Source: Campylobacteraceae bacterium
GTDB lineage: Bacteria > Campylobacterota > Campylobacteria > Campylobacterales > Sulfurovaceae
Reading direction: 5' to 3'
NCBI GenBank assembly: GCA_027035765.1
Contig: JALVUD010000047.1
Location: 1-61,937 of the forward strand
DNA length: 61,937 bases
The position numbers and the translations under genes are program-made. The number at the start of each line of letters is the position of its first letter. Within the stretch, counting starts at the first letter, position 1. The notes beneath the pieces are model-generated. The model had not been told where the DNA came from, ran no database searches, and was given only the letters and a program-made list of their open reading frames with translations. This document shows positions 6,343 to 53,069 of the stretch, piece by piece.

Positions 6343-6364
6343 GAATTAGAAATTAGGAATTGAA
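6337..6364. repeat. Heptanucleotide array, consensus AATTAGG
   Basis: Four 7-base units (agttagg, aattaga, aattagg, aattgaa). The bioV stop TAG at 6340-6342 is inside unit 1. TAG recurs in units 2 and 3. Confidence 0.8.
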
Positions 6365-6393
6365 CCCTCTGAAAGACTGATCGGATAGCATCT

Positions 6394-6470
6394 CGTCATA
6401 CTGAACTTGTTTCAGGATCCAGGGTATAATGGGCATTCAAAGCCCTGGATTCGGGATTGAATCCGGAATA
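6394..6470 (-). repeat. Paired-hairpin interspersed repeat, copy 1 (inverted)
   Basis: Degenerate copy, in reverse orientation, of the approximately 80-bp element seen at 17621, 26111 and 38873. It runs from a CGTCATaCTGAAC block to GAATCCGGAATAA. It fills the gap between bioV and the SDR gene. Confidence 0.7.
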
Positions 6471-6519
6471 ATTTGAGTTTTTCAAAGGGATAAATTTGGA
6501 ACTTTGGATGAGGGAGAGT

Positions 6520-25155: not shown

Positions 25156-26084
25156 CCAATAAGCTGCGCGCAGAGCTCGAAGCGGTTATGGGTCATGAGG
25201 TGGACTTTGGGGTGCAGGGCCAGGATCTCGTCGAAGATCCGCTTGGAGAGGGCGAAGCCTACCTCCCGCTCCTTCTCGGCACCGTCCATGGCAGCCAGGT
25301 TCATCTCGTCGATGATCGCTTTGGGGACGCTGATGCCGGGGACCTTGTCGTCGATGAAGGTGGCGGTGCGGGCCCGGACGATAGGGAATTGACCCAGGAT
25401 CAGCTGAGCCTCTTTGGCGGTTTCGCGGATACTTTTGCTCCGGGCCTCCTCGAAGATCGCCAGCAGTTCCCTCGCATTCTCCAGGTCAAAGACCGGCTGG
25501 GTGATGATGGCTCGGGCACCGTAGTCAAGCTTCTTGACCATCCGCTTCATCAGGTGCTTCATATCCTTGGCGTAGGCGTTGCTCACGGCGAAGGGGTAGA
25601 TGGGTTTGGGTCGGGGGTCCAGCGCCTGTCCCGAGTAGTCGAAGCCGTTGTTGAGACGGTAGATGATGCTCAGCAGCAGGGTACTGTCGCGCTCCAGGAC
25701 CCCCTTGACCTCGGGTTGGTCACTGAACTTGGCGGGATCGCCGGTCAGTGCCAGGATCAGACGGATATCGAAGTCGTTGGCCCCCAGCAGTGAGGATTGC
25801 AGGGAGAGTTTGTTGCGGTCGCGCATACTCATGGTGGCGATGACCGGCTTGCCGAAACGCTGCTGGACCCGGATGGCGCTGAGGATCGCCGACATCTTGA
25901 GGCGGGCCAGGGGGTTGTCGGTGACGGAGAAACCGCTGACCTTCTCCGGCAGGCCGGCGGCTTCGATGGCCTGAAGGATTGGCTCCATGGAGGCGCCGTG
26001 GGGCGGGGTGATCTCTACAGTGATGAAGGGACGGGTCCCCTGCAGATTCTGGCAAAAGCTTTCGAACATCGGATTCTCTTTCAT
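25143..26084 (-). CDS. metF: Methylenetetrahydrofolate reductase family protein
   Basis: Reduces methylene-THF to methyl-THF for methionine synthesis or a C1 branch; flavin-dependent TIM barrel. 313 residues. Visible are VEITPPHGASMEP at the N-terminus, SVTDNPLARLKMSAI, MSMRDRNKLSLQS, LTGDPAKFSDQPEV and the GARAIITQPVFDLE segment with the conserved glutamine. The final residues GSEE and the stop are encoded by a heptanucleotide array, so the natural C-terminus may once have been different. ATG 26069 is an alternative start. Pathway role (methionine versus autotrophic C1) not decidable here. Confidence 0.85.
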   Translation of the reverse strand: MKENPMFESFCQNLQGTRPFITVEITPPHGASMEPILQAIEAAGLPEKVSGFSVTDNPLARLKMSAILSAIRVQQRFGKPVIATMSMRDRNKLSLQSSLLGANDFDIRLILALTGDPAKFSDQPEVKGVLERDSTLLLSIIYRLNNGFDYSGQALDPRPKPIYPFAVSNAYAKDMKHLMKRMVKKLDYGARAIITQPVFDLENARELLAIFEEARSKSIRETAKEAQLILGQFPIVRARTATFIDDKVPGISVPKAIIDEMNLAAMDGAEKEREVGFALSKRIFDEILALHPKVHLMTHNRFELCAQLIGSEE

Positions 26085-26110
26085 TCTGATTGACCTTCGG
26101 GACGAGGCTC

Positions 26111-26190
26111 GTCATTCCGGGCTTGACCCGGAATCCAGGGTCCTGAATACCAAGTCATACCGTGGATCCTGAATCGAGTTCAGGATGACG
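26111..26190 (+). repeat. Paired-hairpin interspersed repeat, copy 3
   Basis: Palindromes ATTCCGGGcttgaCCCGGAAT and ATCCTGA/TCAGGAT separated by about 32 bp, bounded by GTCATTCC and GGATGACG. Lies in the divergent gap between metF and serB. Confidence 0.85.
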
Positions 26191-26263
26191 GAAGCGTGGC
26201 TCCTGGGTTTTTCAGAGGACTTAACGGATTGACTTCCAAATTTATGCCCAGGGTCGGTTTGGC

Positions 26264-49975: not shown

Positions 49976-50713
49976 TCAACCCCGGACGATCTCGCCGGGG
50001 TAGCTGATGATGCCGTAGGTGAGGTTGCCGACGTGGGCAAAGCCCTGGGCCTTCATGACGTGCTGGACCTGGAAGCTGCGGCTGCCGGTGTGGCAGTAGA
50101 GGATGAAGCGCTCCTCTTTGCGGCCCTGGATCTTTTCGAACCAGTCGTAGAACTGGCTGGTGGGCCAGAGTTCGTCGGTGCCTTTGATGTGGCCCATCTG
50201 GTACTCCATGTGCTCCCGCACGTCCACGAGGGTGAAGCGTACCATCCCCAGATCCCGGGCCTCCAGGAGCGACTCCAGTTCGTCGCCGTCGAGCTGCTCT
50301 TTGTCCAGCAGGAGCTCCGCCTCCTCCTGGCTCAGGCCCCGGGAGTGCTGGTGGGCTGCCTCTTCGGCAGACTCCTCCAGACGTTTCTTCTCGGCGTATT
50401 CGGGGGTGCAGAAGATCCCGCAGTGGCAGACGCCGTCCTCGGGGATCTCCTTTTCCAGGGCCGGTTTGCAGGGGCAGATGCGGTTGTCGGCGGCTTTGCG
50501 CTCTTCGGGGGTTTCGCCGATGACCATGAAGCAGGGGCAGTAGCGCTTGCCGTAGATGAGCTTGTTGCGGGCCAGCCCCATGGCGACCCCCTCGTTGATG
50601 TCTTTGTCGGGGTTCTGAACGAAACCGAACTGCTTGTCCACCTTTTCGACGAATTTCCAGGTCTTCTCCAGTTCCGCCTGGAATTCGGGAGAGTTCATAT
50701 CGATCTGCTGCAT
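49976..50713 (-). CDS. Ferredoxin-thioredoxin reductase-like domain fused to rhodanese
   Basis: 245 residues. Residues about 58-100 carry three Cys pairs, CPC-(18)-CPC-(13)-CHC, like the catalytic [4Fe-4S]/disulfide site of the ferredoxin-thioredoxin reductase beta subunit, whose plant spacing is CPC-16-CPC-8-CHC. A helical linker follows (about 105-150), then a rhodanese domain (TLVDVREHMEYQMGHI, active loop LYCHTGSRS). Such a fusion could pass electrons or sulfur between a [4Fe-4S] site and a persulfide. Role inferred only. Preceded by a long structured leader. Confidence 0.85.
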   Translation of the reverse strand: MQQIDMNSPEFQAELEKTWKFVEKVDKQFGFVQNPDKDINEGVAMGLARNKLIYGKRYCPCFMVIGETPEERKAADNRICPCKPALEKEIPEDGVCHCGIFCTPEYAEKKRLEESAEEAAHQHSRGLSQEEAELLLDKEQLDGDELESLLEARDLGMVRFTLVDVREHMEYQMGHIKGTDELWPTSQFYDWFEKIQGRKEERFILYCHTGSRSFQVQHVMKAQGFAHVGNLTYGIISYPGEIVRG

Positions 50714-50751
50714 TTGTAATCCTTTTTAATTATTGGTCTAATTGCGTTCCC

Positions 50752-50930
50752 TGAAAAAACGTCGGTTTCACTCGATAGCTCTGGCAGTCGCGAACATGAG
50801 AAGCGATGGCGAAGGACAACTGCTTGTCCTTCGTCGCTTCGGAACCGTAGCGGTCGGAGCGAAGCAAAGCCGCGAAGGAGCGCCCCTTTCGGGGTTGAGC
50901 GCTCCTTTGTCGCCATCGAGTGAAACCTCT
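50752..50930 (-). ncRNA. Candidate structured RNA / leader element upstream of the FTR-rhodanese gene
   Basis: A 13-bp perfect inverted repeat (GGTTTCACTCGAT at 50764-50776; complement at 50915-50927) encloses about 138 bases of further stems. Hairpin A is 50800-50840: 7 bp, a 3-base bulge, then 10 bp with loop CTGC. Hairpin B is 50875-50907: 8 bp, a 5-base bulge, then CCCC/GGGG with a GAAA tetraloop on the minus strand. A weaker GCGG/CCGC stem lies at 50850-50873. On the minus strand the closing stem is followed by TTTTTT, and a TATAAT box lies upstream. No match to an RNA family that I know. Confidence 0.55.
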
Positions 50931-50976
50931 CTCAGAGATTTTCTTCAGAGGGTTCAATTTGGAAAATTTTCTCGGG

Positions 50977-50982
50977 ATTATA
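50977..50982 (-). promoter_or_regulatory. Extended -10 promoter upstream of the structured element
   Basis: TATAAT preceded by TGC on the minus strand. Transcription from here would read the structured element and then the FTR-rhodanese gene, giving a leader of about 255 bases. Confidence 0.55.
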
Positions 50983-50997
50983 GCAGGCATGTTTGGA

Positions 50998-51025
50998 ATT
51001 GAGAATTGAGGATGGAGGATGGAGA
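50998..51025. repeat. Heptanucleotide array, ATTGAGA/ATGGAGG type
   Basis: Four units (attgaga, attgagg, atggagg, atggaga). It pairs as a rough inverted repeat with the array at 51082-51109. Confidence 0.75.
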
Positions 51026-51030
51026 ATAGG

Positions 51031-51073
51031 GGGAATGAATTCCCGCTTCCAAAAATGCGTTGCAGAGCAACGC
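51031..51073. repeat. Two short hairpins between facing heptad arrays
   Basis: GGGAAT/ATTCCC at 51031-51044 and GCGTTGC/GCAACGC at 51057-51073. The linking text CCCGCTTCCAAAAAT is nearly the same as beside the hairpin at 45537. Confidence 0.75.
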
Positions 51074-51081
51074 TAACCGAA

Positions 51082-51109
51082 ATTCTCCATTCTCAATTCT
51101 CCATCCTCA
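51082..51109. repeat. Heptanucleotide array, ATTCTCC type
   Basis: Four units (attctcc, attctca, attctcc, atcctca), one base beyond the dsbD stop (TGA at 51111-51113). On the dsbD strand units read TGAGAAT/TGAGGAT. Confidence 0.8.
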
Positions 51110-51110
51110 A

Positions 51111-53069
51111 TCATTTTATAGATTCAAGGTGTTTGGCGAAGGCTTCCGGGGGGACGAAGCCCACGAGAAATTTCTCGGGCAGGGGGCGGCCTTTGGCGTC
51201 GAAGATGAGGATGTTGGGGGCGCCGAAGAGTTTGTAGTGTTTGAGGATCGCCTGCTCCTGGGGGGTGTTTTTGGTGATGTCGATCTGGAGGAATTTGAAG
51301 CGCTTCATCGCCTGCCGGACCCTGGGATCGGGGAAGGTGATGTGCTCCAGCTCGGTACAGGCGGCGCAGTTTTCCTTGCCGATGTCCACGACGACCGGTT
51401 TGCCCTCTTTGGCCGCCTGGGCGATCTCACGCTGGAGACGCTCCAGGGTGTAGCCCCGGCGCTGGGCCATGGGGAGAGTGGCGGAGCTCTCGGCAGGTTG
51501 GGTGCCAGAGATGACGGTCGGAGCGGTGAAGGGGGCCAGGGGGTCGAGCAGCGAGCGGGCCCCTGCCAGCAGTCCCACGAAGAGGACCGAGCCGTAGAGG
51601 AAGAGAACGACCGCCAGGAGCTGGATCAGTTTGCCGGCCCCTTTGTAGCGCTGGCCGTTGTCGAAGACCTCCAGATAGAGGGCGCTGCCCAGGAGCAGCA
51701 GCGCCGCCAGGAACATGAAGAGCCCCGGAGAGAGGATCCCCCGCAGGACATAGAGCGCCATGGCCAGCATCACGACGCCGAAGATCTGGCTGACCCGGTT
51801 CATCCAGCCGCCCGGTTTGGGGATGAGCTTGTCGGCTCCGGCCCCCATGAGCAGCAGCGGCACCCCGGCGCCGATCCCCATGACGAAGAGGCTCAGTCCC
51901 CCCAGGAAGGCGTCGCCGGTCATGGAGATGAAGATGATCGCTCCGCTGATGACCGGCGCGGTACAGGTGCCCACGATCAGCGCCGAGAGGGCTCCCATGA
52001 CCGCCGTGCCCAGCAGCCCCTTGCCCTGGGCTTCGTCACTGGCTTTGGTGAGCCGGCTCTGCCAGGAGGCGGGGAGTCCCAGCTCGAAATAACCGAAAAG
52101 CGAGAAGGCCAGCGCGACGAAGAGCCCCGCCATGGGAATGATCACCCAGGGGTTATTCAGATGCGCCTGCAGGTCGAAGCCCAGCAGCCCCGCCACGATG
52201 CCGATGAGGGCGTAGGTGGCGGCCATGGAGACCACATAGACCAGGGAGATCAGGAAAGCCGTCGAGCGGCTCACGCCCCCCTCCTTGCCCGCCTGCTTGA
52301 CCAGGATCGAGGAGAGGATGGGGATCATGGGGAGAATGCAGGGCGTCAGCGCCAGCAGCAGCCCCGCGACGAAAAAGAGCAGCAGCACGAAGAGGATCCC
52401 CTCACTGGCCAAGGCTTTGGCGATCTTGGCACTGTTGCCCTCGGCGGCGAGGGCGGAGATCTTGGAGAAGAAACCGGATTCGCTTGCGGCGGATTTTGGA
52501 TTTTGTCCTCGTTCCTGCGGGGTTGTCGCTTCGCTCGGACGGATTTTGGATGTTGGATTGTTGGTGGTTGTTTGCTCAGATTTTGTATTGGAAACCGAAG
52601 GTTTCTTCGGTTCCACATTCCCTTTCCCTGCCTTGAGATCGAAGGTGTACTTCTGAGGAGAGTAGCAGATGCCGGCATCGCTGCAGCCTGTCAGCTCCAC
52701 CTCCAGAGTGAAAGTGCCGGTGATGCCCGCTTGGCGTATCTCTTTGAGAGGTACGGCGATGTTGAGGGTTCCGTAGTAGACTTTGTCCCCTTCGTAGACG
52801 ACGGGTTCGGGGAGCTTGGGCTTGAGTTCGAGCGCTTTGGGTTTGATGACCTTGAGGTGGAGATCCTTGGCGTAGATGTGGATCTTGTCCGCCAGACGGA
52901 TCGTAGTCTTGAGGGTGTCGCCTTCGACCTTCGCCTCGACTTTGAAAGCCTCCGAGGGTTTGAGGAATTTCTGCTGAAGTCCGAATCCTCCCGAGCTGCC
53001 GAAGCCGGCATAGAGAGTGAAAAGAGGGAGCAGCAGCGCGCCCAGCAGTATCGTCAATCGTCGTCTCAT
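51111..53069 (-). CDS. dsbD: Thiol:disulfide interchange protein DsbD
   Basis: Carries reducing power from cytoplasmic thioredoxin to the periplasm, for cytochrome c maturation and disulfide repair. 652 residues: signal peptide (about 1-21), periplasmic nDsbD domain with a CSDAGICYSPQKY Cys pair, linker (about 155-195), then eight membrane helices with catalytic Cys in TPCILPMIPI and GTCTAPVISG. A C-terminal thioredoxin domain follows (KENCAACTELEHITFPD). The linker is encoded by repeat-like DNA (direct GGATTTTGGA copies at 52491 and 52541). AGGAGG precedes the ATG. Confidence 0.94.
   Translation of the reverse strand: MRRRLTILLGALLLPLFTLYAGFGSSGGFGLQQKFLKPSEAFKVEAKVEGDTLKTTIRLADKIHIYAKDLHLKVIKPKALELKPKLPEPVVYEGDKVYYGTLNIAVPLKEIRQAGITGTFTLEVELTGCSDAGICYSPQKYTFDLKAGKGNVEPKKPSVSNTKSEQTTTNNPTSKIRPSEATTPQERGQNPKSAASESGFFSKISALAAEGNSAKIAKALASEGILFVLLLFFVAGLLLALTPCILPMIPILSSILVKQAGKEGGVSRSTAFLISLVYVVSMAATYALIGIVAGLLGFDLQAHLNNPWVIIPMAGLFVALAFSLFGYFELGLPASWQSRLTKASDEAQGKGLLGTAVMGALSALIVGTCTAPVISGAIIFISMTGDAFLGGLSLFVMGIGAGVPLLLMGAGADKLIPKPGGWMNRVSQIFGVVMLAMALYVLRGILSPGLFMFLAALLLLGSALYLEVFDNGQRYKGAGKLIQLLAVVLFLYGSVLFVGLLAGARSLLDPLAPFTAPTVISGTQPAESSATLPMAQRRGYTLERLQREIAQAAKEGKPVVVDIGKENCAACTELEHITFPDPRVRQAMKRFKFLQIDITKNTPQEQAILKHYKLFGAPNILIFDAKGRPLPEKFLVGFVPPEAFAKHLESIK
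52491..52560. repeat. Intergenic-type repeat inside dsbD
   Basis: GGATTTTGGA occurs at 52491-52500 and 52541-52550, flanking a GC-rich 40-base segment. It is the same heptad unit as the (GGATTTT)4 array at 25057. In frame it encodes part of the Thr/Asn/Pro/Ser/Lys-rich DsbD linker. Confidence 0.65.

Follow-up and report, generated by a model that had tools for sequence, protein, structure and literature searches.

Bacterial MITEs such as NEMIS/Correia, RUP, ERIC and Nezha are dispersed, intergenic, non-coding units of 70-300 bp with terminal inverted repeats (TIRs) of ~15-30 bp, a target duplication and strong hairpin potential (PMC3733652). CGTC REPs occur as palindromic dimers within an outer inverted repeat in Halothiobacillus neapolitanus and Anabaena variabilis, and include RPE-4 and RPE-6 among the palindromic selfish repeats of Rickettsia; they have no dedicated transposase, and their mode of movement was left open (PMC3733652). 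The bcr1-bcr18 repeats of the Bacillus cereus group are dispersed and mobile and have a conserved secondary structure; about half are transcribed within UTRs, and some families are proposed RNAs (PMC6542083, PMC3446304).

The window analyzed here, a stretch of 61,937 nucleotides, derives from a genome that its FTR-rhodanese orthologues assign to Nitratifractor. Ahead of the FTR-rhodanese gene, a sequence-only reading had noticed a strongly structured element at 50752-50982 and taken it for an attenuator, a riboswitch-like leader or a stand-alone sRNA tied to this redox/sulfur gene, with a MITE-like element bounded by TIRs as the alternative. It was the alternative that proved right: 27 dispersed copies, TIRs and a 4-bp target site duplication (TSD) spoke against the former proposals, and we estimate a probability of about 0.85 that the locus is a non-autonomous MITE-like mobile DNA element with nested palindromes, inserted in the interval from promoter to start codon. 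The limits also had to be redrawn, the actual unit spanning 50744-50955 with AATT duplications on either side. The features of the locus are as follows.

49976-50713, minus strand: host gene with an FTR beta domain and a rhodanese domain, 245 aa (Pfam: PF02943, 2.7e-38; PF00581, 7.1e-14)
50740-50743, unstranded: target site duplication AATT, start-codon side (family-wide 4-bp duplication)
50744-50955, minus strand: whole element, read as a MITE, long form, 212 bp (TIRs and flanking AATT, against other copies)
50744-50759, minus strand: right TIR TTTTTTCAGGGAACGC, which includes the six T (copy alignment and genome-wide TIR pattern)
50764-50776, minus strand: outer stem P1, 3' arm ATCGAGTGAAACC (covariation analysis)
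50779-50791, minus strand: conserved core motif 2 GCGACTGCCAGAG (near-invariant in long and short copies; survives a wholly different P1)
50798-50878, minus strand: domain D, ~81 nt (model R1, 103 bits)
50810-50833, minus strand: inner hairpin P4 within domain D, with an invariant GCAG loop (double changes in 8 of 10 pairs)
50883-50894, minus strand: variable hairpin P2, CCCC-GAAA-GGGG (fold and copy comparison)
50901-50912, minus strand: conserved core motif 1 CGACAAAGGAGC (near-invariant and retained with other P1 stems, as motif 2)
50915-50927, minus strand: outer stem P1, 5' arm GGTTTCACTCGAT (helix 1, double changes in 12 of 16 pairs)
50940-50955, minus strand: left TIR GAACCCTCTGAAGAAA (copy alignment and genome-wide TIR pattern)
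50956-50959, unstranded: target site duplication AATT, promoter side (family-wide 4-bp duplication)
50977-51005, minus strand: promoter-like site of the FTR-rhodanese gene, TTCTCA-17-TGx-TATAAT, external to the element (scan; relatives)

All features of the architecture first described were recovered. The 13-bp perfect outer stem (50915-50927 with 50764-50776), the long minus-strand hairpin (CGAAGGACAA-GCAG-TTGTCCTTCG, 50810-50833) and the hairpin with the GAAA tetraloop were all present, and the proposed folding check gave -100.9 kcal/mol for the minus-strand RNA of 251 nt against -72.1 +/- 5 for its shuffles (z -5.8; none of 200 was as stable). The six T after the outer stem exist as well, but belong to the TIR, and the extended -10 box (TG-TATAAT, 50982-50977, with TTCTCA 17 nt upstream) is real but lies outside the element. 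The TIRs of the window copy, of ~16 bp, were imperfect (CCCTGAAAAAA versus CTCTGAAGAAA), which counts against the MITE reading. Elements of this family measure 131 or ~212 bp, below 300 bp, and are devoid of coding capacity, since core lengths vary by 1-2 bases among copies without a conserved frame. A hidden small protein (MATKERS...) was ruled out, short cores differing by 1-3 bases and the ATG not being kept.

Further genomic copies, whose search had been suggested, were found by BLAST of the 251-bp stretch at 27 separate places in its own genome (47 contigs totalling 2.03 Mb, with a completeness of 99.9%), of which 8 were long (core ~165 nt) and 19 short (83-86 nt). Of 60 relatives, 23 gave matches, most of them belonging to Nitratifractor or neighbouring genera; core A copies occur in the close relative Nitratifractor salsuginis. 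The exact core motif was confined to Nitratifractor among 397 Campylobacterota genomes and absent from the viral contigs searched. Aligned copies had common ends, GAACCCTCTGAAAA... and ...TTTTCAGAGnnCTC, and the TIR pattern gave 64 matches as against 2 for the reversed pattern. At the predicted offset, the flanking 4-mers were identical in 32 of the 64 TIR-bounded elements (shuffled mean 9.1; binomial p 1e-11), a fraction lowered by the chance pairs (72-75 bp 'mini') left among these candidates, whereas 0-1 were identical at offsets from -3 to +3 around it. The duplications read AATT, AATA, AATG, AATC, CATT, TATT and AGTT. What marks the element as a MITE is thus its TIRs, its TSD, the number of copies and the empty sites, and not a parent element.

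Nearly all elements with a short core A or a CGTC dimer were exactly 131 bp long, and long ones were 209-215 bp; the total of 131 bp was common to unrelated interiors in all genomes, as if length were constrained. Two further elements with TIRs of the same type and CGTC-REP-like interiors were observed in the window at 6359-6500 and 26080-26225.

A leader specific to the FTR-rhodanese gene, acting as attenuator or riboswitch, would accord with the position between promoter and RBS, the stable fold and the T run after the outer stem. We nevertheless regard it as extremely improbable, because the element recurs at 27 places in its own genome with no conserved tie to one gene or pathway, because its T run is part of a TIR with no terminator scored at the element (intrinsic terminators being sought as a GC stem with a T tract within 0-2 nt), and because the FTR-rhodanese gene lacks the element in four relatives. 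In two of these (G010 and G011), the flanks aligned from promoter to start codon without it, and no fixed relation of the element to any gene was seen; G004 and G009 likewise carried the gene without it. The copy at C42:6913 provided a second empty site, in G006 and G011. These empty sites indicate that the element entered a pre-existing leader. Ahead of the FTR-rhodanese gene of G006, the flanks align as well and a CGTC-REP dimer palindrome occupies the same place, which may stem from exchange of the core or from a separate insertion there.

The promoter-like site itself was found at the same position in G006, G010 and G011. Lying between this conserved promoter and the start codon, the element is probably transcribed, incidentally, as a 5'UTR, so that the location in a transcribed leader was probably assigned correctly; transcription of the FTR-rhodanese gene, with its promoter upstream, would traverse it, and a by-product effect on expression is plausible. 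DsbD is encoded upstream of the insertion, and between dsbD and the promoter the window contains a different palindromic repeat at ~50988-51112 (TTGAGGATGGAGAATTGAGAATGGAGAATT ... AATTCTCAATTCTCCATCCTCCATCCTC, with an internal GCGTTGCTCTGCAACGC hairpin), which is common to G006.

In 88 copies whose gene context was classified with a simple home-made gene finder, 31 lay between tandem genes on the same strand, 25 between tandem genes on the opposite strand, 21 between divergent and 11 between convergent genes. The downstream gene was on the same versus the opposite strand in a ratio of 52:36 (p 0.11), without orientation bias, and the copies follow no leader- or terminator-like placement rule.

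Many dispersed copies together with absent covariation had been named as the signature of a mobile repeat; the copies were found, but covariation proved strong, albeit without G-U wobble. In the long copies, 97.5% of cells were paired and double changes affected 26 of 39 pairs, with a covariation score of 0.283 against 0.107 for shuffled and <=0.09 for slid alignments. For domain D, double changes were seen in 23 of 24 pairs and the score was 0.490 against 0.129, in an alignment that was fitted to the model and leans to it. In RNA helices, G-U is a tolerated intermediate and A-C is not. Accordingly, RNase P RNA from the same relatives gave a GU:AC ratio of 54:9 at covarying pairs, with 7% GU cells. 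The element gave 15:18 without one fixed G-T pair (53:18 with it), the inner hairpin P4 gave 0:7 with no G-U cell among 46 copies, and domain D gave 13:22 phylum-wide with 1.1% GU. The difference from RNase P RNA was significant for the element (Fisher 8e-5) and domain D (2e-6), these p-values being nominal because the GU and AC cells come from related sequences and are not independent events. Reading the opposite strand swaps the GU and AC counts, and the overall ratio is still not RNA-like; moreover, the energy models used to pick both structures prefer G-U to A-C, a bias that runs against the low-wobble result.

Of the properties of a structured RNA family, double changes are hence present and the wobble excess of the RNase P control is absent, and strong covariation without wobble points to DNA-level hairpins. 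We read the arms as probably matched at the DNA level, either through selection for hairpin or cruciform DNA or through arm-to-arm templated repair. A structured RNA with a function of its own (sRNA or ribozyme-like), dispersed by a mobile MITE carrier and under RNA-level selection, would explain the covariation, the invariant unpaired core motifs and GCAG loop, the architecture kept in other genera, the probable 5'UTR transcription and the one G-T (G-U) pair at the top of P1 (columns 17/165), which is conserved in most copies and fits RNA better than a pure DNA palindrome, though it lies within an invariant motif. With G-U not exceeding A-C on either strand, no orientation bias of the neighbouring genes and no Rfam match even at E up to 10, such an RNA seems to us very unlikely. 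The Rfam check, also among the steps suggested, yielded no described family: at gathering thresholds and at E<=10, only chance matches to eukaryotic families were returned.

The mobile DNA element favoured here is more than an ordinary MITE in being modular. Between its TIRs lies either core A, a CGTC-REP dimer (CGTCATTCCGGGCTTGACCCGGAATCC ... GGATCCTGAATCGAGTTCAGGATGACG) or next to nothing, the last in the TIR-only minis L304, L311, L335 and L336. Core A consists of stem P1, the motifs CGACAAAGGAGC and GCGACTGCCAGAG and hairpins; it has neither a GTAG nor a CGTC unpaired tag and hence does not qualify as a REP, whereas sister elements in the same TIRs do bear CGTC tags. With the core motifs kept, P1 was replaced wholesale in L200 (GTTTTTTGCCCGATA/TATCGGGCAAAAAAC), G010 (TTCTTTGGGTCAAGT/ACTTGACCCAAAGAA) and L199 (GTCAACCTTCCGATGG), and the core motif occurred in other P1 stems also at L319, L320 and L333; in G011, the core sat within an unrelated TIR frame, TATTAnnCCGGCA. 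Three orthologous insertions (L013/L034, L029/L210 and L031/L212) had a short core here and a long one in relatives, implying that domain D was lost or gained in place.

Among core A elements domain D is restricted to the long form, and it is also found free-standing across Campylobacterota, where model R1 matched 81 of 397 genomes and 35 of the 68 sampled genera, often in tandem with a period of ~82 bp. The literature searched describes no repeats of this nested palindromic kind from Nitratifractor or Campylobacterota, and domain D is a phylum-wide hairpin family new to it. An integron attC site was also considered for domain D, which has a single GTTRRRY-like box; the second core box is absent.

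Domain D might alternatively be a bidirectional transcription terminator or gene-3'-end element, its dispersed units being mobile terminators. Of the 18 copies outside Nitratifractor that could be measured, 8 terminate precisely at the stop codon of an ORF of at least 390 codons on the opposite strand (background 3.7%, p 1e-7), and several have an A-tract/hairpin/T-tract arrangement, e.g., at the groEL end in L361. Yet many copies, that of the window included, lack a T tract and are located in 5' regions, and sense and antisense placements are equally frequent, which makes this explanation unlikely. Precise ends at stop codons, which read ATGTGAGAnnCG on the gene strand, were observed in L342, L343, L348, L349, L350, L355, L359-L361, L364 and L367. 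In L356 and L366, domain D lies beside tRNA genes, and the repeat is followed by part of the tRNA 3' end in a second copy.

As for the enzyme that moves the element, no transposase gene with element-type ends (GAnnCTCTGAAAA) was found in its own genome or the genus, as represented by draft MAGs, which lose IS copies, and no DDE_Tnp_1 was found in its own genome. The 55 single-TIR places in its own genome and relatives at which a parent IS was sought turned out to be MITEs, CGTC dimers, minis or chance occurrences. The cores could instead be recognised as hairpin DNA and acted upon by an HUH (RAYT/TIRYT-type) transposase, as would suit their structure conserved over sequence, strictly Watson-Crick pairing and invariant loops, and the one Y1_Tnp protein of ~257 aa in each of several Nitratifractor genomes. 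This we judge quite unlikely: the only Y1 transposase gene of the own genome, TIRYT-like, lies between GGGGTCAGGTGAT TIRs of its own, and neither core A nor CGTC nor an element TIR occurs in its vicinity, so that the flanking arrangement of RAYT/TIRYT systems is absent, and G001, G004, G005 and G006, most of them incomplete MAGs, had many copies and no Y1_Tnp match.

The single Y1/TIRYT-like transposase gene at L372 (G000:C20:28345-28674), between AGGGGTCAGGTGATGCTAATG inverted repeats, is present once in several Nitratifractor genomes. In G008 and G017, the RNase P RNA genes (L279 and L281) are extended by the insertion of palindromes bearing GGGTCAGACCC / GAGGTCAGACCC motifs, which resemble the GGGGTCAG TIRs of the TIRYT gene and represent a repeat inside an essential ribozyme.

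For the MITE-like element, we envisage that a putative transposase acting on the TIRs would move the unit in trans; its insertion duplicated 4 bp (AATT). The interior palindromes may be retained by acting, or being repaired, as hairpin or cruciform DNA, and might acquire further palindromes at their apices; within the 5'UTR, the element would give the FTR-rhodanese mRNA a strong hairpin, and expression may change as a by-product. More tentatively, domain D and the core-A motif could be phylum-wide hairpin DNA modules, conserved at the DNA level in structure rather than sequence, which insert in palindrome apices and beside stop codons via a dedicated hairpin-recognising recombinase or transposase and ride inside TIR elements, a possibility that we hold to be doubtful rather than probable. 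If true, they would form a nested class of palindrome-targeting mobile DNA.

Whatever moves it, the element illustrates that a leader with stable folding and strong covariation may turn out to be a mobile DNA palindrome. Counting G-U versus A-C mismatches, with RNase P RNA from the same genomes as calibration, offers a cheap discriminator for multi-copy structured-RNA candidates. The analysis further exposed a Campylobacterota-wide hairpin family (81/397 genomes), often ending exactly at stop codons.

The Nitratifractor element resembles NEMIS/Correia, RUP, ERIC and Nezha (PMC3733652) in size, non-coding nature, TIRs, target duplication, dispersed intergenic location and hairpin potential. It differs in that several interiors unrelated to one another (core A, a CGTC-REP dimer or none at all) share one TIR set, that one interior occurs in several frames, and that the parent IS was not found. 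The CGTC dimers of H. neapolitanus and A. variabilis are alike in their outer inverted repeat (PMC3733652), but the outer repeat in Nitratifractor is a TIR with a measured 4-bp TSD that is shared with a non-REP interior; REP dimers inside such elements suggest a route for CGTC-REP movement, left open in that work. The bcr repeats are comparable as dispersed mobile repeats with conserved secondary structure, but bcr1 is tied to a TTTAT motif and limited to B. cereus, and, in contrast to the bcr families proposed as RNAs (PMC6542083, PMC3446304), the pair changes of the Nitratifractor element look DNA-like. The Rickettsia palindromic elements (PMC3733652) are likewise palindromic and selfish but differ in sequence, and no in-frame insertion of the Nitratifractor element was seen. 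The MITE, REP and bcr kinds are known; new here are palindromic interiors that can be exchanged within a single TIR frame and a phylum-wide hairpin domain that the literature searched does not describe.
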